Part shown: one piece after another, positions 1 to 11,273 of the stretch | How the letters are laid out: each line of letters opens with the position of its first letter | Numbering within the stretch: the stretch's first letter is position 1 | Source of the DNA: an uncultured Sulfurovum sp. | Lineage (GTDB): Bacteria > Campylobacterota > Campylobacteria > Campylobacterales > Sulfurovaceae | DNA length: 64,000 nt | Direction: 5' to 3' | Assembly (NCBI GenBank): GCA_902727895.1 | Contig: CACVAP010000059.1 | Coordinates: 1-64,000 of the forward strand | Made by a program: the position numbers and the translations under genes | Notes under the pieces: generated by a model | What the model saw: the letters and a program-made list of their open reading frames with translations, nothing else | What the model was told of the DNA's origin: nothing | Database searches by the model: none

Positions 1-643
1 ACTTTTGTTTTAACAAACGCTTATTATCAGGAAAAAGTTCAGAACCTCTACTCAATGCTTCTAAAGCACCATTATGGTCTTTTAGCTTCCAATAACACTC
101 AGCTCTTAATGTATAGAGTCCAGCTTTGTTACTTCCCATCTCACCAGCATTGTCTAAAGAGGCAATGGTATTGGCATAATCTTTTAACTTGTAGTAAGAT
201 TTTGAAAGGTTGATGTGCAGTTTTCCTAACTTTTCAGTACGAATTTTTTCAGCATCAAAAACAGGTTCGACCACTTTGGGTTTGACGGGCTCTTTTTTTT
301 CAGAAAAGAGCGAAAAAAGATACTCTTTCTTCTCTTTTTCTACAGGAGGTGCTAGGTAGACTTTAGTCTTTGTTCCTTTAACGGCTTGGTTAAAATTCAC
401 AATAGAGTCTGCATACTTTTTCTCTTTAACATCCATAACACCCAACATGGTGAAGTATTTACCAGCATCAAAATTTACGGCTGTCTGATCAACTTCATCC
501 AAGGCTTCACGTGCTTTTTCAAATTTACCATCAAAAATCATCATGGTTGCGACTGACATATGGTCAATGGTAGGAGCAGTAACATCGTTACTTCCACTCA
601 ATGACGTTAACGATAACGCCAACACCAGTGGTAAATATTTTAC
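1..643 (-). CDS. TPR-repeat protein of the TonB operon, partial, with a defective start
   Basis: Partial: the gene runs off the left edge. The open frame encodes a hydrophobic signal-like start (KYLPLVLALSLTSLSG) and then helical TPR-like repeats, for example around LHINLSKSYYKLKDYA and LYTLRAECYWKLKDHN. It is the last gene of a DUF3450-TtpC-ExbB-ExbD-TonB operon, where a periplasmic TPR protein is usual. The expected start, ATG-ATG-AAA at 655-647, is followed in frame by TAA (646-644), so the open frame begins at a GTA codon with no start of its own. The next in-frame candidates are GTG at 625, which would remove the basic end of the signal peptide, and ATG at 559. It is either a nonsense-disrupted gene or a sequencing error. 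Confidence 0.7.
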
Positions 644-666
644 TTATTTCATCATAGTACTCCTCC
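644..666 (-). other. Ribosome-binding site and start codon closed by an in-frame TAA
   Basis: On the minus strand, AAGGAGGAG sits just upstream of ATG-ATG-AAA-TAA. The Shine-Dalgarno is strong and its spacing is right for the TPR gene, but the reading frame closes after three codons and then continues open for more than 640 nt. A single T-to-A change in the stop (TAA to AAA) would restore a normal lipoprotein-type or Sec-type N-terminus. Confidence 0.75.
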
Positions 667-667
667 T

Positions 668-1315
668 TTAATTAAAGTCAAAACGAACTTTTTGTTTAGC
701 CCAAACCTTGACAGCTTGACCTTTGTATTTAGCAGGAGCAAATCGCCAAGATCTAACTCCATTAAGTGCAACAGCATCAAAAACACCAGCAGGGAACGCT
801 TCAAGTACTTGCGCTGTTTCCACACTTCCTTGTTTGTCAATCAACACATTTACAATGACATAACCTTTAATACGCTTCTTCATCGCAGCAGCTGGGTACT
901 CCATCTGAGAACGTGACAATACTTTTGGTTTAACATCAACCGTATTCCCTGTCATTACCGTGTCTTCTGAAATTTCATCCAATAAATCCGTTGCATCACC
1001 ACCAATGCTATCGGTTGCAAACTCAGGAATGTCCATGGCAATACCACTTAAACTCGCACTCAAGTTTGGCATGGGTGCTTTAGGTGGTGCTTTTTTTGGT
1101 TTCGGTTTTGGTTTAGGCTTTGACTTTGCAGCTTTTTTAACAGCTTTTTTCTCCATCTTTACATAACGGGCTTCTTTTTTAACTTTGTCTTCTTTCTTCT
1201 TAATCGGCTTATTAAACGCTACAACTAAAGCCATCATAAGTAGTCCACCCAAAAACATAAAGAAAAAGGCTTCAACAGACTTAAAGACTGTGCCATATTT
1301 TCTTCTTTGTGCCAT
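668..1315 (-). CDS. tonB: TonB energy-transducing protein
   Basis: 215 aa. One N-terminal membrane anchor (about residues 15-34), then a Lys/Pro-rich periplasmic stretch (KPKPKPKPKKAPPKAP), then a C-terminal TonB domain (about 135-215, with YPAAAMKKRIKGYVIV and SWRFAPA). TonB passes proton-motive energy from ExbB/ExbD to outer-membrane receptors. It lies 5 nt after exbD and 12 nt before the TPR gene's start codon, in one operon. The DUF3450 and TtpC-like genes upstream place it with the TonB2-type systems known from Vibrio and Shewanella. No TonB-dependent receptor is visible in this window. Confidence 0.9.
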   Translation of the reverse strand: MAQRRKYGTVFKSVEAFFFMFLGGLLMMALVVAFNKPIKKKEDKVKKEARYVKMEKKAVKKAAKSKPKPKPKPKKAPPKAPMPNLSASLSGIAMDIPEFATDSIGGDATDLLDEISEDTVMTGNTVDVKPKVLSRSQMEYPAAAMKKRIKGYVIVNVLIDKQGSVETAQVLEAFPAGVFDAVALNGVRSWRFAPAKYKGQAVKVWAKQKVRFDFN

Positions 1316-1320
1316 AAGAT

Positions 1321-1737
1321 CTATCCCATCTCTTTCGTAGTAGAAACAGCCACATCTTTAGCACCTGACATACGACACCCATCAACCACATCAATCAGTT
1401 TGTTAACAGGAATATTATCATCGGTAATCACCAAAACATTCTTTTCAGTAGCTGTTCTTAAAAGATCACGAACTTTACTCTGAATTGCCCATACTTTTAC
1501 GGGTTGGTTGTCAATATAAACTTCACCCATATTGTCAATGTAAACACGCACAATTTTAGATTCAGCCTGACTTGCTGAAGAAGCAGATGGTCGGTTAATG
1601 TCTAACTTCATGTCTTTTACAAAGGTTGTGGTTACCATGAAAAAGATAAGCAAGATAAATACCATATCAATCAATGGTGATACATCAACGTCAGTTGGGT
1701 TGTCCGTTCTTCTTTGTCTAAATCTCATGCTTTGCAT
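1321..1737 (-). CDS. exbD: ExbD-type biopolymer transport protein
   Basis: 138 aa, the usual size for ExbD/TolR. A short basic cytoplasmic N-terminus leads into one membrane helix containing the conserved Asp (VSPLIDMVFILLIFFMV, about residues 20-40), followed by a periplasmic domain. With ExbB it forms the proton-driven stator that energises TonB. The ORF overlaps the end of exbB by 20 nt; the fourth codon, also ATG, is an alternative start. The overlap suggests translational coupling. Confidence 0.9.
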   Translation of the reverse strand: MQSMRFRQRRTDNPTDVDVSPLIDMVFILLIFFMVTTTFVKDMKLDINRPSASSASQAESKIVRVYIDNMGEVYIDNQPVKVWAIQSKVRDLLRTATEKNVLVITDDNIPVNKLIDVVDGCRMSGAKDVAVSTTKEMG

Positions 1738-2344
1738 CCTTTGTGCTTAATGTATCGGCAATCTGCTCAAACTCTAAAGCAAATCTCTCCTCTTTTTTGT
1801 CTAAAATTTTTCCTAAAATAAGCCCTGGTACAGCAACAACCAATCCTAGCTCTGTTGTAAATAACGCTTTAGAAATCCCTCCAGAGATACTCGCTCCTTG
1901 TGAGAACATTGAACCTGATGTTAAAGCATCAAAGGTTTCTATCATCCCCATAACCGTTCCAAGTAACCCTACTAAAGGGGCTAAAATAACAATGGTTTTA
2001 ACCAAAGTTGAATACTTTGAAATCATTGTCATGTAAGGAAACAATGCATCATAAATATGGTTTTTAACTTTTAATCCCAACCTAGATGCCTCTCGTGTTG
2101 CCTCTAAAGCATCAGCAATGGCGTAGTCTAAAAGACCCCTCATTTTTTGTCTGTCACCACGTTTAATGTGTTTGTCAATTTGACGACGAATATTTCCCAT
2201 CGTCCCTCGTTTAAGAACTAAGTATCTATAGCCTAGTCCATACCAAAGGAAAAGGTTGAGTACAAAAAGTACCCACATTACGATTCCCCCAGCATTCATA
2301 AAGTTGACAAACATCTCTAAGTATGTTTGTAATTGATCTATCAT
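1718..2344 (-). CDS. exbB: ExbB/TolQ/MotA-family proton channel
   Basis: 208 aa with three predicted membrane helices (about 17-38, 115-138, 150-176) and the MotA/TolQ/ExbB signature region (PLVGLLGTVMGMIETF). This is the channel subunit that pairs with ExbD. It overlaps the upstream TtpC-like gene by 4 nt and ExbD by 20 nt. It is the second ExbB-family protein of the operon, which is the hallmark of TonB2/TtpC systems. Confidence 0.9.
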   Translation of the reverse strand: MIDQLQTYLEMFVNFMNAGGIVMWVLFVLNLFLWYGLGYRYLVLKRGTMGNIRRQIDKHIKRGDRQKMRGLLDYAIADALEATREASRLGLKVKNHIYDALFPYMTMISKYSTLVKTIVILAPLVGLLGTVMGMIETFDALTSGSMFSQGASISGGISKALFTTELGLVVAVPGLILGKILDKKEERFALEFEQIADTLSTKDAKHEI

Positions 2345-3663
2345 TTTGCATTGTGCTTTTCATAGATGTTAACAATATGAAGGGCACTCTGCTCCATAGA
2401 GTCTTTAATTCCTTGCGCCCAACCAGAGATTAGGTTTCCAAGTAAAAGAAGTGGAATGGCAACAATAAGACCAAACATTGTCGTAATCAGTGCTTCAGAA
2501 ATACCTCCTGAAAGCATTTTAGGGTCACCTGTTCCATACTCGGTAATCATGTCAAAGGTTGCAATCATCCCTGTTACCGTTCCCAAAAGACCAAGCAGTG
2601 GTGCAACAGCTGCTAGAACCATTACAAAGCCACCAAACTTATCAATGTGACCACTTTCATTTAAGATGTTTTCCATAACAATGTCTTCAATATGCTCACG
2701 GTCTCGTTTAATGTTTCTCAGTGTTGACTTTACAACTCTGGCTGCTGAACCTTTAAAACCTTTGATTGCTTCATACGCTTCATCACCTTCTCCATTTTCA
2801 ACTTTATAGGCAACAACTCTAGAAATCTTTTTAACGTTTGATCCAGCCCATAAAAGAATAAGTACTCTTATTACTAAAAGAAAAAGACCCAAGAGTCCAA
2901 GAGCTAAAATGATGTAACCAATAACGCCACCACCTTCAAGAATATCATCAACTGTTTTCTCTTTTTTATACTCTATCTCTTTGTCCATATTTTCATAAGT
3001 AAAGATGTCCAATGTTGGTCTCATGTCATTGGCAAACAATGCTTTAGCATCATCCGATGAACCAGCAGCATTCCATAGTTTGTAGTGTTGGTCTCCAGCA
3101 GGAGCTAAAGCACCAGCTGCTTTGTCCGAAATACCATAAGCAGCAATATTTCCAACTTTGACAATCTCACCTTCGGCTACCGAACCATTGGGTAAATAAA
3201 ATTTACCTTTTTCCGTTTGAATTGAAGAGAGCTTTGTGTATAGGTTCTCTGCATCTTTAAACGCTTGTTCCATCTTTTGAGCATTTGTTGTTTCATTGCT
3301 GTCATCAAGTGTAATGCCATATTCATCAAGCATTCCCTTCGCTTGAATCACCACTGAACCTGTAATCTCTGTATTGCCTTCTTTGTCAGTCAGTTTTTCT
3401 GAAAGCTTTTCTATTTGCGTATTTTTTACTTTAACAGCTTCATTAAGTTCCAAATACTGTTCTTGAAGTGCTTTTGTTTTCGCTTTGGCTTTGGCTAAGT
3501 CCGATTGTTGTTGTCTTTTTTCTTTATTCAATCTACTTTTTAATTCTGATTTTTGTGCCTTTAAAAAAGTATACTCTTTGTTGTAAGCATTGCTTAACTC
3601 ATCTACATGAATGGATGTTGTTAACAATAATAGTGCGACTATAACTGGGTAAAATTTGTTCAT
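2341..3663 (-). CDS. TtpC-like MotA/TolQ/ExbB protein with long coiled-coil periplasmic region
   Basis: 440 aa, much longer than a plain ExbB. A signal-like N-terminus is followed by a charged coiled coil (about 25-105), a globular linker, a first membrane helix near 245-270, and a C-terminal MotA/TolQ/ExbB core (PLLGLLGTVTGMIATFDM, about 350-370). This architecture matches TtpC, the extra ExbB-like partner required by Vibrio TonB2 systems. Its start overlaps the stop of the DUF3450 gene by 1 nt. What TtpC-like proteins contact is not settled; spanning the periplasm towards TonB is an inference from the coiled coil. Confidence 0.85.
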   Translation of the reverse strand: MNKFYPVIVALLLLTTSIHVDELSNAYNKEYTFLKAQKSELKSRLNKEKRQQQSDLAKAKAKTKALQEQYLELNEAVKVKNTQIEKLSEKLTDKEGNTEITGSVVIQAKGMLDEYGITLDDSNETTNAQKMEQAFKDAENLYTKLSSIQTEKGKFYLPNGSVAEGEIVKVGNIAAYGISDKAAGALAPAGDQHYKLWNAAGSSDDAKALFANDMRPTLDIFTYENMDKEIEYKKEKTVDDILEGGGVIGYIILALGLLGLFLLVIRVLILLWAGSNVKKISRVVAYKVENGEGDEAYEAIKGFKGSAARVVKSTLRNIKRDREHIEDIVMENILNESGHIDKFGGFVMVLAAVAPLLGLLGTVTGMIATFDMITEYGTGDPKMLSGGISEALITTMFGLIVAIPLLLLGNLISGWAQGIKDSMEQSALHIVNIYEKHNAK

Positions 3664-4433
3664 TATTTACTCTCCGATAAAATTAAAGCATTTGGAAGGC
3701 TGAAGAATCCTGTACAGATTTGTTTTTGAAGTGAGTCGAAAAGGTTAACTATTTTGGCAATGTCCTCTTTGTTACTAACTACTTTGTAGCCATAACCTTT
3801 TCCCTTTTTAATAACATAACCTACTTGGTCATCAGGTGTTGCAAAGTACATCATCACCGAACCTATTTTGGCAATCTTAGCCATTTTTGGTTCACCCTCT
3901 AACATAATCTCTTGTTTGAAAAGTCCTATCTCTTTGGTTAAACGAATGGTATCGTCATAACTTGCCCAAATAAGAAGTAAAGCTTTCTCTTCGGTTACTA
4001 CCTCATCAATAAGATTTTTTTGAAGCGTTGCCAAATCAGCCAAACGCTCTTTTGTTTTAAAAGGAATACCTTTTTCAATAATCCCTCTTAACGAATGAAT
4101 GGCATCCAATAACATTGGTTTGATACTCTTATTTTTATTAGAAGCTTCCTCAATTTTTGTTTGAACTTTTAACAATTCTAATTCAGCTAACTTAAGTGCT
4201 GTCTCTTGACGATTAATCTGTGCTTCACTGTCAGCACTTTGCATGGTATTCGATTTCATTTCAGCTTTGTAGATGTCTTTGTTATCATCAATTTTAGTAT
4301 AAAGTGCTTCTACATCAGCCCTTAATTTCATAATCGATTTAACAATATTTTCATTGTCAGCATGAAGAGATGCTGTCCCCAATGCCATACAAACTACTGT
4401 TGATAGTACTACCCTTTTATATGTTCTAAACAT
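3663..4433 (-). CDS. DUF3450-family periplasmic coiled-coil protein
   Basis: 256 aa. Signal peptide (VVLSTVVCMALGTASLHA), then a long helical, coiled-coil-rich region (about 30-140) and a small C-terminal domain ending in a PNALILSESK-like tail. DUF3450 proteins are regularly the first gene of TtpC/ExbB/ExbD/TonB operons; their role is unknown. It is the first gene of this operon, preceded by a GGAG ribosome-binding site and a four-repeat Pho-type promoter, so the whole TonB operon is expected to follow phosphate supply. Confidence 0.8.
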   Translation of the reverse strand: MFRTYKRVVLSTVVCMALGTASLHADNENIVKSIMKLRADVEALYTKIDDNKDIYKAEMKSNTMQSADSEAQINRQETALKLAELELLKVQTKIEEASNKNKSIKPMLLDAIHSLRGIIEKGIPFKTKERLADLATLQKNLIDEVVTEEKALLLIWASYDDTIRLTKEIGLFKQEIMLEGEPKMAKIAKIGSVMMYFATPDDQVGYVIKKGKGYGYKVVSNKEDIAKIVNLFDSLQKQICTGFFSLPNALILSESK

Positions 4434-4461
4434 TTACACTCCAATGTATTTTTATACTTTT

Positions 4462-4517
4462 ATACTATTACGAACTGGTAACAAGAAGGGAACAGTATGA
4501 TTACAAATCGGTTACAT
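4462..4517 (-). promoter_or_regulatory. Pho-box promoter of the TonB operon
   Basis: Read on the minus strand, four consecutive 11-nt repeats: ATGTAACCGAT (4517-4507), TTGTAATCATA (4506-4496), CTGTTCCCTTC (4495-4485) and TTGTTACCAGT (4484-4474). A 6-nt spacer then leads to the -10 hexamer TAGTAT (4467-4462). There is no good -35 box; the last repeat occupies that position, as in PhoB-activated promoters. Confidence 0.8.
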
Positions 4518-4678: not shown

Positions 4679-5833
4679 CTACTTCGTATTGCCTGTTCCA
4701 GCATCAAACTTAGCTTCAATATCAACTGAGTTTCCACCATCTGAATGGTCTGTAAATTTATTATCCGTAGAAGTACCACTAAGCGTAACATTCTCAAAAG
4801 AAATATTTGCAACTGTTGCAATACCCTGAGAATGAATCGTACCAGCACCATCCGTTGAGTTGTCTGTTACTGTACCATTTTTAAAATGTCCACCAACACC
4901 ATCTTTCTTAAAGAAAATACCACCCTCTTTTACTGAACTTGTCTGAGTAATGTTAAATCCATCAAAAGTCGCAGCTGTTGTACCTGACATCTCAATGGCA
5001 GCATTTCCAGTACTTTGTGTAATGGTTAAATCACTTACCGTACCAGCGTAACCATCGTCAATATCAAAGTGGTCATCTGTACACTCTGAAACCATAATGT
5101 TACTCATATTTACCGTACCACCCCATGCTTCGATACAGTCATCATCTGACTTAGTCACTGTAATGTTATCAATGGTTGTACCAGAACCAACACCGACAAA
5201 ACTAAGACCATTAATTTCTTTGTCTGTCTCCATAGTAATACCTGAGTTTAAAATCTGAACATGTTTTAAGATTCCAGAGCTGTCTGTTAAATCAGAATCA
5301 TCAGCACTGTAAGCAGAGTTCACTTCGTACGCTTGTACTTGGTCATTTCCAGCTTTACCAATAAGAGTCAAACCACCCCATTGACCCACAGCTGCTGTTC
5401 CACCGTCATATGCTGTTTCCGATGTAAAAACGATGGGTTGCGCAGAAGTACCTTCAGCCATAATCTTTGCACCTTTGTCAACAATCATATAAGAAGTATT
5501 GTCTCCTGTACCATCTTTACCAACAATGGTTGTTCCAGCTTCAATGGTTAAAGTAGCCCCGTCTGTTACCGTTACCAAACCATCTAACACCCATGTTGTA
5601 TCCGAAGTTAAGGTCATATCACTGCTAATGTCTCCAGCTAAAGTCTCTTTTGGATTGCTCACGGTTGTGTCTGTATTTGTATCTGTGGTATCAGTGCTAT
5701 CATCTGTTGCACTGTCATTGTAAATATAGACTTGATTAGGAGAGTTTTTATCTTGGTCAATACAACCAGTAAAAATTACACTCCCTATAAGTAGCGAACT
5801 TAATGCTATGACTTTTCTCTGTTTTATTAACAT
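4679..5833 (-). CDS. Beta-helix-like surface or periplasmic lipoprotein (paralog 1)
   Basis: 384 aa. Lipoprotein signal with lipobox IFTGC, so the mature protein would start at Cys24. A Thr/Asp-rich linker (about 40-62) is followed by a body of short, repetitive Gly/Asp/Thr strands (LTIEAGTTIVGKDG, IDNITVTKSDDDCIEAWGG, DDHFDIDDGYAG) that looks like a right-handed parallel beta-helix. Acid clusters such as SDDDC and DDHFDIDDG could bind calcium or another cation. I do not recognise a named family or enzyme. Most of the body is nearly identical to the downstream paralog at 6024-7136. It has its own Pho-type promoter, suggesting induction at low phosphate. Confidence 0.7.
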   Translation of the reverse strand: MLIKQRKVIALSSLLIGSVIFTGCIDQDKNSPNQVYIYNDSATDDSTDTTDTNTDTTVSNPKETLAGDISSDMTLTSDTTWVLDGLVTVTDGATLTIEAGTTIVGKDGTGDNTSYMIVDKGAKIMAEGTSAQPIVFTSETAYDGGTAAVGQWGGLTLIGKAGNDQVQAYEVNSAYSADDSDLTDSSGILKHVQILNSGITMETDKEINGLSFVGVGSGTTIDNITVTKSDDDCIEAWGGTVNMSNIMVSECTDDHFDIDDGYAGTVSDLTITQSTGNAAIEMSGTTAATFDGFNITQTSSVKEGGIFFKKDGVGGHFKNGTVTDNSTDGAGTIHSQGIATVANISFENVTLSGTSTDNKFTDHSDGGNSVDIEAKFDAGTGNTK

Positions 5834-5862: not shown

Positions 5863-5918
5863 ATAGTAATATGTAGTGGTAACAAGAAGGGAACACATTG
5901 ATTACAATATGATTACAA
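5863..5918 (-). promoter_or_regulatory. Pho-box promoter of beta-helix lipoprotein 1
   Basis: Minus-strand repeats TTGTAATCATA (5918-5908), TTGTAATCAAT (5907-5897), GTGTTCCCTTC (5896-5886) and TTGTTACCACT (5885-5875), then 6 nt, then -10 TACTAT (5868-5863). The last two repeats and the leader near ACATTGGAGT resemble the TonB-operon promoter closely, suggesting the two control regions share ancestry. Confidence 0.8.
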
Positions 5919-6023: not shown

Positions 6024-7136
6024 CTATTTGCTATTTCCTGAGCCAGCATCAAATTTTGTTTCAATGTCAGCTGAGTTTCCACCATCATCATGGTCTGTAA
6101 ATCTGTTGTCTGCTGATGAACCCGTCAACGTAACATTTTCAAATGAGATATTTGCTATTGTTGCTGTACCTTGAGAATGAATCGCCCCAGCACCATCAGA
6201 AGAGTTGTCTGTTACAGTACCATTTTTAAAGTGTCCACCAATACCATCTTTTTTAAAGAATAAACCACCCTCTTTTACTGAACTATTTTGAGTAATTGTA
6301 AAGCCATCAAAAGTAGCAGCTGTTGTTCCTGACATTTCAATAGCAGCATTACCAGAAGTTTGTGTAATGGTTAAGTTACTTACTGTACCAGCATAACCGT
6401 CATCAATATCAAAGTGATCATCCGTACACTCTGAAACGCTAATATTACTCATGTTCACTGTACCACCCCATGCTTCAACACAATCATCATCGGATCTGCT
6501 TACGGTAATGTTATCAATGGTTGTACCTGAACCAACACCCACAAGGCTAAGACCATTAATCTCTTTGTCCGTTTCCATAGTAATACCAGAATTTAAGATT
6601 TGTACATGTGTTAATATACCAGAACTGTGTGTTAAGTCAGCATCCGTAGCTGCATAAGCAGAATTTACTTCATACGCTTGTACTTGATCATTTCCAGCTT
6701 GACCAATAATGGTTAAACCACCCCATTGACCAACAGCAGCCGTTCCACCATCAACAGCAGTTTTTGAAGTAAAAATAATAGGACTAGCAGCTGTACCTTC
6801 AGCCATGATTTGAGCGTCATTATCAATAATCATGTACGAAGTATTATCACCTGTACCATCTTTACCAGCAATGGTTGTTCCAGCATCAATTTTTAACGTT
6901 GTCCCTTTAACAGCCACTAAACCATCAAGAATCCAAGTTTTGTCAGCCGTTAACTGTGTACAAGTAGTAATGTCACCACTTAATGTTGTTGAAGAAGGTA
7001 TTGTGTACGTTGAACATACTGAGGTATCTGTATCTGTGTCCGTACTTGTTGTTGAAGATGAAGAACTTCCTCCACCACATCCTGTAAATAATAATGCTGC
7101 TGTTGCAGCCGAAAGTAAAATATTTGTTGCTTTCAT
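6024..7136 (-). CDS. Beta-helix-like lipoprotein (paralog 2)
   Basis: 370 aa. Lipobox LFTGC (Cys20) followed by a Gly/Ser/Thr/Asp linker and the same repetitive beta-helix-like body as the neighbour at 4679-5833. The two differ mainly in the first 60 residues. The shared motifs DDDC.EAWGGTVNMSNI and CTDDHFDIDDGYAG are conserved in both. Tandem duplication with retained acidic motifs suggests a binding function rather than decay. No catalytic signature is recognised. It is divergent from the OlsF-type gene, with abutting Pho-type repeats in the shared intergenic region. Confidence 0.7.
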   Translation of the reverse strand: MKATNILLSAATAALLFTGCGGGSSSSSTTSTDTDTDTSVCSTYTIPSSTTLSGDITTCTQLTADKTWILDGLVAVKGTTLKIDAGTTIAGKDGTGDNTSYMIIDNDAQIMAEGTAASPIIFTSKTAVDGGTAAVGQWGGLTIIGQAGNDQVQAYEVNSAYAATDADLTHSSGILTHVQILNSGITMETDKEINGLSLVGVGSGTTIDNITVSRSDDDCVEAWGGTVNMSNISVSECTDDHFDIDDGYAGTVSNLTITQTSGNAAIEMSGTTAATFDGFTITQNSSVKEGGLFFKKDGIGGHFKNGTVTDNSSDGAGAIHSQGTATIANISFENVTLTGSSADNRFTDHDDGGNSADIETKFDAGSGNSK

Positions 7137-7223: not shown

Positions 7224-7257
7224 CTGTTTCTAACTTGTTATCAAACTATTTTATAAT
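7224..7257 (+). promoter_or_regulatory. Pho-box promoter of the OlsF-type gene
   Basis: Plus-strand repeats CTGTTTCTAAC (7224-7234) and TTGTTATCAAA (7235-7245), then 6 nt, then a consensus -10 TATAAT (7252-7257). It begins 2 nt past the opposing Pho box, so one cluster of regulators could serve both genes. Confidence 0.75.
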
Positions 7258-7292: not shown

Positions 7293-9002
7293 ATGATTAA
7301 TGTACAAGCATCTCTTATCAATAAGTACCCACAAGTAGAAACCATACCCAAACCTCTACGCCTACCATTTTTCTCTGCTATCAAAAAAATCATACATGAA
7401 AATGATATTAATATTTTTTTAGAAGAAAAACGTTATGCTGGACCTTTTACCTTTGTAGAGTCTGTTTTAGACCATTTTAACTTTTCCTATAAGTTCGCAT
7501 CAAACCAAATTGAAAACATTCCAGCTACAGGACGTGTGGTGATTATTGCAAACCATCCTTTAGGTGCTTTGGATGCACTTTCATTAATTCACTTAGTTAA
7601 ACGGGTAAGATCTGACATCAAAGTAGTTGCCAACGATATTCTTTCAAACATAGAACAACTCAAACCCATACTTGTAGGTGTCAATACCTTTGGCTCAACC
7701 CTCTCAAAAGATTCCGTTAAACAAATTTCAGATGCCTTAGAAAATGAAGAAGTGTTAATTGTTTTTCCATCGGGTGAAGTATCACGAGCAGGTGCCAATG
7801 GCATTAAAGATACCCAATGGCAAAAAGGCTTTCTAAAGTTTGTAAACAAAAGTAAATCAGCCATTGTTCCCATACATATCAATGCGAGGAACTCCACACT
7901 GTTTTACACCCTCTCTTCTTTGAACAAAAGCTTATCAGCCATTTTATTGGCGCATGAGATGTTTAAACAAAAAGAGGGCTCACTTGAATTTACTATCGGT
8001 GAAAGTATTCCTTATAAAAACTATAAGAATTCTCTTTTAGATACCAAATCTCAAGTCAAACTTTTTAAAAAACATCTCTACCGTATTGCCAAAGGTAAAA
8101 AACCTATTTTCAATACGCAAAAATGCATTGCCCATCCAGAAGATAGAGTCGCACTCAAACAAGAACTAAAAAACTCTCAACTTTTAGGGAAAACCAATGA
8201 TGATAAAAAGATTTATCTTTATGAATATGAGCAAGGCTCTATTGTCCTTCAAGAGATAAGCCGACTGCGTGAATACAGTTTTAGGAAAGTAGATGAAGGT
8301 ACTGGTAAAAAAAGAGATAAGGATGAATATGACTACTACTATAAACACATTATTTTATGGGATGATGATGCTTTAGAGATTGTAGGTTCTTATCGTATTG
8401 CTGAAAGTAATTTTGTACATGAATACTACGGAGTAGAAGGGTTTTATACCAACACTTTATTTAGATTTGACGAACAATTTGAGCCCTATCTAAATAATTC
8501 TGTTGAACTTGGTAGAAGTTTTGTGCAACCTAAATATTGGGGAAGTAGAGCTTTAGATTATCTTTGGCAAGGCATCGGTGCGTACCTAAATGAAAATCAA
8601 CATATTAAATATCTCTTTGGTGCTGTCACACTTAGTGGAACTATGAATCATAATGCCCAAGAGTTAATTCTTTATTATTACAATAAATACTATGGCAATA
8701 AACAAGAGCTACTCAATCCAAAAAATGAATTTAAATTTATGCAAAACAATCTAGATGATTTAGCCTCTATTTTTCATGCAGACAATGCAAGAGAAGACTT
8801 CATTGTTTTACGAGAGCAATTAGCCTATTATGGCGTGAGTGTTCCAACCCTCTACAAACAATATGCTGACTTATGTGAAGAAGACGGTATCTCTTTTATG
8901 GGGTATAACATAGACAAAGATTTTGAGAATTGTATAGACAGTTTTATTTTGGTAGAAGTTGATAAAATGAAAGAGAAGAAACGGAAGCGTTATATTAAGT
9001 AG
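7293..9002 (+). CDS. olsF: OlsF-type bifunctional acyltransferase for ornithine-lipid synthesis
   Basis: 569 aa with two acyltransferase parts. The N-terminal PlsC/OlsA-like domain carries NHPLGALD (87-94) and FPSGEVSRA (about 158-166). The C-terminal GNAT/OlsB-like domain (about 300-530) has LREYSFRKV and VELGRSF. This fusion is the arrangement of OlsF, which N-acylates ornithine and then O-acylates the product to make phosphorus-free ornithine lipids in the inner membrane. In several bacteria this replaces phospholipids under phosphate limitation, and a two-repeat Pho-type promoter lies directly upstream. A related hemolysin-like acyltransferase with another acceptor is possible, but the neighbourhood favours ornithine lipid. 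Confidence 0.8.
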   Translation: MINVQASLINKYPQVETIPKPLRLPFFSAIKKIIHENDINIFLEEKRYAGPFTFVESVLDHFNFSYKFASNQIENIPATGRVVIIANHPLGALDALSLIHLVKRVRSDIKVVANDILSNIEQLKPILVGVNTFGSTLSKDSVKQISDALENEEVLIVFPSGEVSRAGANGIKDTQWQKGFLKFVNKSKSAIVPIHINARNSTLFYTLSSLNKSLSAILLAHEMFKQKEGSLEFTIGESIPYKNYKNSLLDTKSQVKLFKKHLYRIAKGKKPIFNTQKCIAHPEDRVALKQELKNSQLLGKTNDDKKIYLYEYEQGSIVLQEISRLREYSFRKVDEGTGKKRDKDEYDYYYKHIILWDDDALEIVGSYRIAESNFVHEYYGVEGFYTNTLFRFDEQFEPYLNNSVELGRSFVQPKYWGSRALDYLWQGIGAYLNENQHIKYLFGAVTLSGTMNHNAQELILYYYNKYYGNKQELLNPKNEFKFMQNNLDDLASIFHADNAREDFIVLREQLAYYGVSVPTLYKQYADLCEEDGISFMGYNIDKDFENCIDSFILVEVDKMKEKKRKRYIK

Positions 9003-9232: not shown

Positions 9233-9916
9233 TTACACCAATTTATAACCTACATTACGAATAGGAACCAGATATTCTTTTTCACCTGTTGGGTCTATTT
9301 TTTTCTTTAATCTACTGATGGTTACATTAATGGTTTTTTCATGAAAGTCCATTCCTTCATCATGCCATACTTCTTCTCTTAGAAAGTCACGTTCTAAAGC
9401 TTGATTTGGGTTCTTAATAAAAGTATATAAGAGTTCAAACTCTAAATTTGTAAGTTCAATGGCTTCGCCAGTAATGGAAATTTCATGCTTTTTAATATCC
9501 ATAACAATGTCACGATGTTTAAGTTTTTCACTTTGAAGAGCACCTGAGCGTTTTAAAACGGCTTTAACCCGTAATATTAACTCTTTAGGACTAAAAGGTT
9601 TTGTCATATAATCATCAGCACCTCGTTCAAAACCCTCTTCAAGGTCAGACTCTTTGTCTCTTGCTGTTAAAAAAATAACGGGGATAGTATAACCAAGGGA
9701 ACGAAGCTCTGCGACAAACTCTGAACCTTCAACATTGGGTAAGTTTCGATCAACAATCATAAGTGCAGGATTTTCTTCTTCTAAAAACTGTTCAACATTT
9801 TCTGTGGATAAAAAGCCCATGGTTTCAAACCCTGCTTTTTGTAAATGATATTCAACAAGCTCTAAAATATCTTCTTCATCTTCTATAATTACGATCTCTA
9901 AGGATTGATTTTTCAT
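9233..9916 (-). CDS. phoB: PhoB-like OmpR-family response regulator
   Basis: 227 aa from the ATG at 9916. Receiver domain (about 1-120) with the acidic pair EDEED, phospho-acceptor Asp in MIVDRNLP, LTAR and MTKPF; winged-helix DNA-binding domain at the C-terminus (about 135-227, ending RNVGYKLV). A longer ORF opens at 10003, but the extra 29 residues are hydrophobic and unlike any regulator, so the shorter start is preferred. Its own promoter carries the same 11-nt repeats as its neighbours. No sensor kinase adjoins it, so the PhoR partner must lie elsewhere. The PhoB identity rests mainly on the surrounding Pho-type promoters. Confidence 0.8.
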   Translation of the reverse strand: MKNQSLEIVIIEDEEDILELVEYHLQKAGFETMGFLSTENVEQFLEEENPALMIVDRNLPNVEGSEFVAELRSLGYTIPVIFLTARDKESDLEEGFERGADDYMTKPFSPKELILRVKAVLKRSGALQSEKLKHRDIVMDIKKHEISITGEAIELTNLEFELLYTFIKNPNQALERDFLREEVWHDEGMDFHEKTINVTISRLKKKIDPTGEKEYLVPIRNVGYKLV

Positions 9917-9922
9917 AAAATA

Positions 9923-9956
9923 ATTGTAACATACAATGGTAACGAAATGATAACAG
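9923..9956 (-). promoter_or_regulatory. Autoregulatory Pho-box promoter of the response regulator
   Basis: Minus strand: CTGTTATCATT (9956-9946) and TCGTTACCATT (9945-9935), a 6-nt spacer (GTATGT), then -10 TACAAT (9928-9923). Only 6 nt separate the -10 from the ATG, so a transcript started here would be leaderless or nearly so. Confidence 0.75.
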
Positions 9957-10074: not shown

Positions 10075-11196
10075 TTAGAATTTATAAATCATATCTAACT
10101 GTACACGCTCGTAATCAGCATCTACATCTGAACTACTTTTACTTTCATAGATTTCATTGAAGAAAAAGTTCCCTGCAAGATAAAGGTTTTTACCTGCTTT
10201 GAATTTTCCTCTAATTGCATGACCCTTCGCAGCTGTACCACCACCAAAATTATCTGAATCTGAATATGCACCAAGTACTGCATCTTCTTGAAGCTCAGTA
10301 TACGAGTACTTAACTTGCCAATCTCCAACTTTTTTAGCTTTACCTAATTGAGCTGCTACGTCGTAACCAAAGTTATTGTCGTCTGCACCAAAGTTGTATG
10401 CCACACCTGCTGCAAGTTTTAATGGTTTACCAAATACACTTTTAAGTTGTAGCTCGGCAAATCCTTCTACAAGATGGTAATCATTACTATACTCATCATT
10501 TGCATCTAAGCTATTTCCTTTTCTGCTACCAAAGAGTGTTGAATTCCCTTTAAGACCATCATAAATATAAGCACCTGCACCTAAATTAAGTTTTCCAGCA
10601 TCTACTTTTGTTTTGTGTACATATTGAGCTATTAAAAGATTCACATCGTCCTTTGCAATTGATGCTTCCTCTAATGTTGGTTGATTAATACCTAAAGTAA
10701 CTAACTTGCTATCATCTTTATATTGGTAATTTACCCCATTCATTGAAATATCATTATCCCAAACAAGTTGTGACTTAATAGGTCTATACATCATGTAAGG
10801 CTGTCTACCTATTTTGTATTTAGCATTATCAGACTTGTAAGACAGACCTAAGATATTAAATCTTAATGATTGCCAAAAGTAGTCACTCAAAGGTTGGTCA
10901 TCTTCAAAAGTTTGGTTACCCGAGGTTGGATTGGCAAAACCAGATCTCATACCCGACTCAAAAGTAAGATTATCAGTTAGGTCAACATTTAAACCTAATC
11001 TTAAACGATATCTATTTCTATACTTATTGTCTTTATCGTCTCTTTCGATACTCTCATATCTAAGTCTTAAGTCACCTTTAGCATGAATTCTGTCAAACAT
11101 AGTATTCTCAGCTTTCTCAACTGCTGCTGTTGTTACAGCTGTATCTGCTAACATAATTGTACTTAATGCGATGGTCGATAATAAAATTTTTCTCAT
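10075..11196 (-). CDS. Outer-membrane porin, probably phosphate-stress induced
   Basis: 373 aa. Signal peptide (LLSTIALSTIMLADTA), then repeated amphipathic strands with aromatic girdles and a C-terminal aromatic residue (LDMIYKF), the pattern of a 16-18-strand beta-barrel. Segments such as GDLRLRYESIERDD and YKIGRQPYMMYRP resemble Campylobacterota alginate-export/OprO-P-like barrels. Substrate is not readable from sequence; the three-repeat Pho promoter suggests anion or phosphate-ester entry under phosphate limitation. Confidence 0.7.
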   Translation of the reverse strand: MRKILLSTIALSTIMLADTAVTTAAVEKAENTMFDRIHAKGDLRLRYESIERDDKDNKYRNRYRLRLGLNVDLTDNLTFESGMRSGFANPTSGNQTFEDDQPLSDYFWQSLRFNILGLSYKSDNAKYKIGRQPYMMYRPIKSQLVWDNDISMNGVNYQYKDDSKLVTLGINQPTLEEASIAKDDVNLLIAQYVHKTKVDAGKLNLGAGAYIYDGLKGNSTLFGSRKGNSLDANDEYSNDYHLVEGFAELQLKSVFGKPLKLAAGVAYNFGADDNNFGYDVAAQLGKAKKVGDWQVKYSYTELQEDAVLGAYSDSDNFGGGTAAKGHAIRGKFKAGKNLYLAGNFFFNEIYESKSSSDVDADYERVQLDMIYKF

Positions 11197-11228: not shown

Positions 11229-11273
11229 AGTATAAAACAAAATGGTTACAAAATGATTACACAATGATTACAA
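11229..11273 (-). promoter_or_regulatory. Pho-box promoter of the porin, clearest example
   Basis: Minus strand: TTGTAATCATT (11273-11263), GTGTAATCATT (11262-11252) and TTGTAACCATT (11251-11241), almost identical consecutive 11-mers, then 6 nt (TTGTTT) and -10 TATACT (11234-11229). This is the cleanest set and gives the working consensus TTGTAATCATT. Confidence 0.85.

Follow-up and report, generated by a model that had tools for sequence, protein, structure and literature searches.

The window analysed here, the first 64,000 nucleotides of contig CACVAP010000059.1 of an uncultured Sulfurovum sp. (contig C59, whose base 1 is window position 1), opens with an operon for a TtpC-type energiser of TonB-dependent transport, which stands behind a four-unit Pho-type box and downstream of two genes for beta-helix lipoproteins. 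In relatives the operon is followed by the gene of a TonB-dependent receptor, and energiser and receptor occur in exactly the same genomes. Given the gene content, the shared promoter motif, this exact co-occurrence and the folds of the lipoprotein and the receptor, it is probable, if by no means certain, that the operon encodes a PhoB-controlled Ton machine of the TtpC type that is dedicated to one receptor/beta-helix pair and serves phosphorus acquisition. Throughout, C denotes contigs of this genome, L named loci (its own and those of relatives) and G genomes.

The energiser operon

The operon is read on the minus strand between positions 1 and 4433 in the order DUF3450-TtpC-ExbB-ExbD-TonB-TPR, and its 3' end meets the contig edge. 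Its genes are as follows.

3663..4433, minus strand: DUF3450 protein (TtpB-like); PF11932, 4.2e-29
2341..3663, minus strand: TtpC-like protein of 440 residues, a periplasmic part and a MotA/ExbB domain; PF01618, 8.1e-28, residues 308-424
1718..2344, minus strand: ExbB; PF01618, 2e-21
1321..1737, minus strand: ExbD; PF02472, 7.9e-29
668..1315, minus strand: TonB; PF03544, 5.1e-20
1..655, minus strand: TPR protein gene (TtpD-like), truncated by the contig start; from the sequence, a three-frame translation and the relatives L054 and L055

The five open reading frames (ORFs) between 668 and 4433 match TonB_C, ExbD, MotA_ExbB (twice) and DUF3450, in agreement with the initial annotation, which had named a TonB2/TtpC-type energiser. 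With the TPR gene, whose identity is backed by a frame match and by TPR families in the relative L056, the whole part list of a TtpC-type (TonB2) system is present: DUF3450, TtpC with an ExbB-like domain, ExbB, ExbD, TonB and TPR.

Pho-type boxes at the operon and its neighbours

The box that precedes the DUF3450 gene reads TGTAACC-N4-TGTAATC-N4-TGTTCCC-N4-TGTTACC and scores 28/28 on a four-unit scale, on which the top score in five simulated windows was 24. Upstream of the operon start lie the two beta-helix lipoprotein genes and then OlsF, a PhoB-type regulator and a porin, and Pho-type boxes stand at the following positions.

4477..4516, minus strand: four-unit box before DUF3450, its TGTxxxC units all perfect and repeated every 11 bases; matrix 15.2, 0/200 shuffles
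5878..5917, minus strand: four-unit box before beta-helix lipoprotein 1; 28/28, matrix 20.1, 0/200 shuffles
7225..7253, plus strand: box before OlsF; matrix 14.9, 0/200 shuffles
9927..9955, minus strand: box before the response regulator (phoB); matrix 19.5, 0/200 shuffles
11233..11272, minus strand: box before the porin; 27/28, matrix 30.0, 0/200 shuffles

To avoid circularity, the 29-column matrix behind these scores was trained without the operon promoters, solely on regions upstream of pstS, pstC and PiT, 55 in all, from related loci. It reads TGTAACCAAAnTGTAACC..., the same repeat as that of the window boxes, and in this genome it scores 33.7 at pstS, 24.3 at pstC and 18.1 at PiT. The promoter of lipoprotein 2 has a weak matrix score of 9.1, yet one that was reached by 0/200 shuffles, while the score at an M16 gene opposite the porin was equalled by 18/200. 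Both the four-repeat Pho box at the front of the operon and its recurrence at the neighbouring genes, as originally proposed, are therefore borne out. A three-unit pattern drawn from the window sites gave 20 matches in this genome with at most three mismatches, as against 2 for the reversed pattern, and its weaker matches include sites before pstC, PiT and pstS.

The same motif recurs in relatives. Operon leaders were readable in 42 of 55 related loci; 33/42 lie above the 99th percentile of shuffles and 36/42 above the 95th, and 35/42 also surpass the 99th percentile set by 277 in-operon genes. A first control, made of 103 other ORFs from the same loci, was less favourable, as only 2/71 beta-helix/DUF3450 upstream regions exceeded its 95th percentile (rank test on the same data, p 7e-8). 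It was replaced by the shuffles and the in-operon genes because porins without a label and further genes next to pst were judged to be among its members. Given the 9/42 related leaders without a clear box, the repeats could be an AT-rich coincidence, with the operon outside phosphate control. However, this is extremely improbable for three reasons: first, the window promoters were matched by 0/200 shuffles; second, 33 of the 42 relatives exceed the 99th percentile; and third, the operon is linked to pst genes.

Separate boxes are also found within the gene set of some relatives. In L058, other genes split ExbD from TonB, and the detached TonB gene has its own near-perfect four-unit box, while in L056 a four-unit box lies 44 bases before the receptor gene. 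The expectation of the initial annotation that a receptor would carry the same box thus holds for L056. At this genome's receptors on C17, C58 and C61 the matrix found no Pho-type box, nor did it at the other Ton cluster, on C17.

At the operon no Fur-like site was found at the sequence level, the best candidate being 10/19 and equalled by 498/500 shuffles in a test that covered the operon without its receptor gene. At the ExbB of C17, a Fur-like site of 14/19 was equalled by 15/500 shuffles. Since the box is common to the pst promoters, no Fur-like site was found and the operon is linked to pst or PiT in relatives, the predicted control of the operon by phosphate rather than iron, which the initial annotation had suggested, is well supported.

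The binder of the boxes would be PhoB. Two PhoB-like regulators, 59% identical, are encoded in this genome, one in the window (9233-9919) and one at L070:13775-14452, where it adjoins PiT-phoU-pstBAC; a third regulator is the one that follows the receptor. A search for PhoR returned 36 kinase matches, all of which fell short of the cut-off.

The receptor and its co-occurrence with the energiser

In relatives the gene after TPR encodes a TonB-dependent receptor of about 1,000-1,100 residues, which in most loci sits inside the operon without a separate box, L056 being the exception. A response regulator often comes next, and porin, PiT, phoB, pstS and pstCAB are found there in many loci. The receptor is missing from the window because of the assembly edge. 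The initial annotation had remarked that no receptor was nearby, which is true of the window alone: a protein search places the last 735 receptor residues of this genome on contig C66, with a response regulator and pstS as neighbours.

The survey covered the genomes of 149 relatives, this one included, with TtpC counted at E < 1e-100 and the receptor at E <= 1e-60. Full-length TtpC is present in 16/149 genomes, the receptor in exactly the same 16 and neither in the other 133 (Fisher 8e-22, uncorrected for kinship). Weak TtpC matches in most of the other genomes cover only the ExbB-like domain and were left uncounted. The beta-helix protein was found in 14 of the 16 TtpC genomes, with two weak matches in other genomes; in the two TtpC genomes without a match (G008 and G052) the operon starts at a contig end.

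Gene neighbourhoods give the same picture. The 55 named loci come from records titled Campylobacterota or from unplaced bacterial records, with a single exception, whose title is that of an archaeal bin. The receptor has one or more energiser genes beside it in 52/55, and the remaining three loci begin no more than 150 bases from a contig end. Where at least 7 kb upstream of the receptor is readable, at least four of the six energiser genes are present in 27/27 loci and the beta-helix gene in 25/27, and pst or PiT genes occur in 19/26 loci of at least 18 kb. These patterns point to an energiser that is dedicated to one receptor rather than a general one. The archaeal title belongs to L096, named Candidatus Bathyarchaeota archaeon, which holds a whole cluster of the Campylobacterota type and is probably a mis-binned contig.

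In the two relatives' receptors that were scanned, CarboxypepD_reg and Plug (PF07715) were found, PF00593 gave no match and no STN-type signalling domain was reported. PF00593 matches at four places in this genome were considered and set aside, none being the receptor of the operon. A stretch LxPASxELEExxVLAP is invariant in 38/38 aligned receptors and is taken as the putative TonB box. The AlphaFold model of the receptor (predicted local distance difference test score, pLDDT, 80.6) has a plug and a barrel and is matched by 191 solved PDB chains at E <= 0.001, including PhuR, FecA and XusA (9gbc). XusA was also the sole sequence match of the receptor profile, over the CarboxypepD_reg part. Plug, putative TonB box and beta-barrel, the marks of a TonB-dependent transporter, are therefore all present.

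The beta-helix lipoproteins

Two lipoprotein genes lie immediately upstream of the energiser.

4679..5833, minus strand: beta-helix lipoprotein 1 (ElpS/FI-like); lipobox FTGC, AlphaFold pLDDT 85.6, Z of about 24 to right-handed beta-helix folds
6024..7136, minus strand: beta-helix lipoprotein 2, with 76% identity to lipoprotein 1 in the alignment; PF13229 at 4.3e-5, short of the curated cut-off

The combination of a right-handed beta-helix lipoprotein and an adjoining TonB-dependent receptor is that of the ElpS/FI family. A lipobox pattern is present in 23/35 related ORFs of at least 330 residues, several of the remaining ORFs being truncated or mis-started. No SusD-type partner was found, as the Pfam scans returned no SusD family, and the partner is a beta-helix protein. 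A PDB sequence search with the beta-helix profile gave no match below E 0.4. The fold matches to alginate epimerases, tailspikes and lyases have the fold alone in common with the lipoprotein, and no function was taken from them.

In the alignment, the most conserved residues of lipoprotein 1 fall into three groups, D231 D232 E235 W237, D253 D254 D257 D259 and E281, at a spacing of 22, from which alone it follows that they would stack on successive turns of the beta-helix. This acidic ladder suggests a metal or ligand site, and its DDxxDxDxG part is found again in relatives from Pseudoalteromonas, Sphingomonas and Parabacteroides. In three loci the lipoprotein unit occurs about three times within one protein of some 1,165-1,175 residues (L056:4279-7770, L059:11435-14950 and L062:4789-8316).

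Relatives on plasmids

A lipoprotein relative was found in 21 of 72,556 plasmid records, and in 20 of the 21 a receptor match lies within about 3.4 kb; a Marinobacter plasmid has just fragments with a CarboxypepD_reg label. TtpC relatives occur in 25 plasmid records. In 12 from Pseudoalteromonas and one from Alteromonas, the genes of TtpC, receptor and lipoprotein all fall within some 11 kb; the remaining 12 (Salinivibrio, Vibrio, Photobacterium, Aeromonas, Phocaeicola and Fusobacterium) have no lipoprotein match. The Alteromonas macleodii plasmid pBGP9 has the order phoB-phoR-phosphate-binding protein (pstS-like)-2OG oxygenase-betahelix-receptor-DUF3450-TtpC-ExbB-ExbD-TonB-TPR. Compared with the window (or L056), the Alteromonas lipoprotein is 35-39% identical, TtpC 37% and the receptor 31%, and the Alteromonas DUF3450 and TPR proteins have no blastp match at E 1e-4. 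E. coli-type Pho boxes (at least 12/14 matches) are absent from L141-L145, and L140 has one, distant from the operon. A box of the Alteromonas locus itself, TGTAAYAAAANTGTCAC, was seen at three promoters of L141 and has 5 matches in L141:5421-16708, where 0.73 would be expected; each of them precedes phoB, the beta-helix gene or DUF3450, and the pattern was itself drawn from three of these five sites. Plasmids of Indioceanicola and Sphingomonas carry the lipoprotein-receptor pair followed by type II secretion genes, with no energiser, which is the order of Caulobacter CC0170-CC0171 (described in PMC2996285).

Direction of transport, cargo and role

If the operon does encode a phosphorus-acquisition machine, its action may be pictured as follows. 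On phosphate starvation PhoB would bind the boxes of 11-bp repeats and turn on one segment of its regulon, namely the beta-helix lipoproteins, the complete TtpC-type energiser, the downstream receptor and the surrounding porin, PiT, pst and ornithine-lipid genes. The energiser would power this single receptor, and the lipoprotein, presumed to sit at the cell surface, would catch a phosphorus-containing or phosphate-complexed ligand and pass it inward to the receptor, a handover akin to that of SusD-like or XusB-like lipoproteins.

It is also conceivable, if rather unlikely, that transport runs outward, with TonB and the receptor carrying the beta-helix lipoprotein through the outer membrane or onto it in phosphate starvation, as Oar does with the protease PopC in Myxococcus. 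The receptor carries CarboxypepD_reg, as does Oar, a Myxococcus xanthus receptor of the TonB-dependent class (PMC6434023), lipoprotein and receptor are adjacent in Campylobacterota, Gamma- and Alphaproteobacteria and Bacteroidota, on the two alphaproteobacterial plasmids type II secretion genes take the place of the energiser, and ElpS (CC0170) of Caulobacter is described as crossing the outer membrane independently of the type II system (PMC2996285). However, importers such as SusC have the identical domain order (according to PMC6434023), and the receptor model resembles ordinary plug-and-barrel importers. Oar itself serves protein export. We know of no beta-helix partner or Pho control for it.

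A further possibility concerns the cargo, which could be iron or another metal that is phosphate-bound or phosphate-limited, the control then serving the release of phosphate from iron minerals or the supply of metal to starvation enzymes. The TtpC systems of Vibrio are described as iron-induced and as transporting iron (PMC6957404), siderophore genes are found close to one Pseudoalteromonas copy, and the invariant acidic residues of the lipoprotein, one helix turn apart, could bind metal. The lack of a Fur-like site at the operon argues against a metal cargo, for which we see only a small chance; the labels of the neighbourhood map were confined to Ton, Pho and lipid genes, and iron genes may be present among its unlabelled ORFs.

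The genes around the operon bear on another alternative, in which the operon does not encode a nutrient importer.

7293..9002, plus strand: OlsF, ornithine lipid synthase; NF052615, over its cut-off
9233..9919, minus strand: PhoB-type response regulator; best NCBIfam match TIGR02154 PhoB, 179.6 bits, under the cut-off of 296
10075..11196, minus strand: porin; PF16930, 2.9e-18

Since OlsF and the porin share the box, the operon could serve envelope maintenance or signalling in connection with phosphate stress and the exchange of membrane lipids, in which case the regulator that follows the receptor would deliver the output. This OmpR-type regulator is present in many loci, and its phosphorylated Asp is missing in two of the four copies aligned: Asn replaces the Asp of PhoB in L073:1359-2051 and L056:16405-17076, and the Asp is kept in L059 and L064. 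Such a role is very unlikely, given that no STN-type domain was reported in the receptors scanned and that the lipoprotein partner points to ligand handling.

The proposed role in phosphorus acquisition must also be set against a number of observations that weigh against it, beginning with the nine leaders below the 99th shuffle percentile and the outcome of the first control. In two Pseudoalteromonas regions with the same gene set, phosphate genes are absent up to some 14 kb from the receptor, and one of these regions adjoins the siderophore genes. The Caulobacter receptor CC0171, beside ElpS, is reported to be constitutive (PMC2996285). In this genome (96% complete), searches for the PhoX, PhoA and PhoD families, the phosphatase families covered, gave no match, so that ester hydrolysis by these enzymes seems unavailable. 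The initial annotation had proposed the uptake of phosphate esters or nucleotides; a link to phosphorus acquisition is likely, and that particular cargo is unsupported. The genes themselves also appear damaged: the receptor on C66 (L073, 2032-4218) stops matching at residue 356, where a multicopy repeat begins, its frame has an in-frame TAG farther on, and codon 4 of the TPR gene is an in-frame TAA (644-646) in place of the Gln codon of L054 and L055. The repeat (4226-4346 on C66, 121 bases tested) occurs at nine places in the genome, several of them at contig ends, and starts a transposase-like frame. Given the interrupted receptor and the early TPR stop, the system is possibly non-working in this strain; it may be decaying in this population, or the bin may mix strains.

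A more speculative possibility, to which we would give little weight, is that the beta-helix lipoprotein is itself a phosphate-releasing or phosphate-binding catalyst with an acidic metal site, in bacteria without PhoX, PhoA and PhoD, and that TtpC, TonB and the receptor both bring it to the surface and import its product. If true, catalyst-lipoprotein and Ton machine would form a new self-contained phosphorus-scavenging system common to Campylobacterota and Alteromonadales.

Comparison with known systems

The Vibrio TonB2 and TonB3 systems (TtpB-TtpC-ExbB-ExbD-TonB-TtpD) have the same extra parts, DUF3450, TtpC and TPR, and TtpB2 and TtpD2 are described as required for TonB2 iron transport. 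Whereas TonB2 is iron-induced and serves siderophore uptake, the present operon has a Pho-type box, a dedicated receptor downstream and beta-helix lipoproteins upstream (PMC6957404 for Vibrio).

In Caulobacter, ElpS is a surface lipoprotein made in phosphate starvation, whose overproduction was accompanied by more secreted alkaline phosphatase activity and whose passage through the outer membrane needs no type II system. As here, it adjoins a TonB-dependent receptor, CC0171; the neighbour there is a type II secretion system, in place of the energiser (as far as PMC2996285 describes them). The likeness to ElpS lies in gene order and in a link printed in PMC8115612, and not in a direct comparison with the CC0170 sequence. 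That link is through FI and FII of Flavobacterium johnsoniae, which are reported as 31-36% identical to CC0170 with modelled polygalacturonase-like folds, FI being the most abundant low-phosphate exoprotein (PMC8115612). Both are low-phosphate-induced lipoproteins beside a Pi-inducible receptor (PUSIII, PUSIV) with Plug and CarbopepD_reg, or beside phoBR, and in the available text of PMC8115612 no TtpC-type energiser is described with them.

XusA and XusB of Bacteroides likewise pair a CarboxypepD_reg receptor, found among the structure matches, with a surface lipoprotein. Their cargo is a siderophore, and the likeness rests on the receptor, not on the fold of the lipoprotein.

In summary, what is new here is that low-phosphate beta-helix lipoproteins and a TtpC-type energiser are combined in a Pho-type operon that has a receptor of its own. 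A phosphate-controlled TtpC system was not found in a literature search whose scope excluded most subscription journals and all bioRxiv preprints, and in the literature searched TtpC-type energisers figure solely as iron systems, while ElpS, FI and FII are without a settled role. The union of lipoprotein, energiser and receptor in a single operon would allow a direct genetic test of their role at low phosphate, and may widen the range of uses to which TonB machines are put in sulfur-oxidising Campylobacterota.

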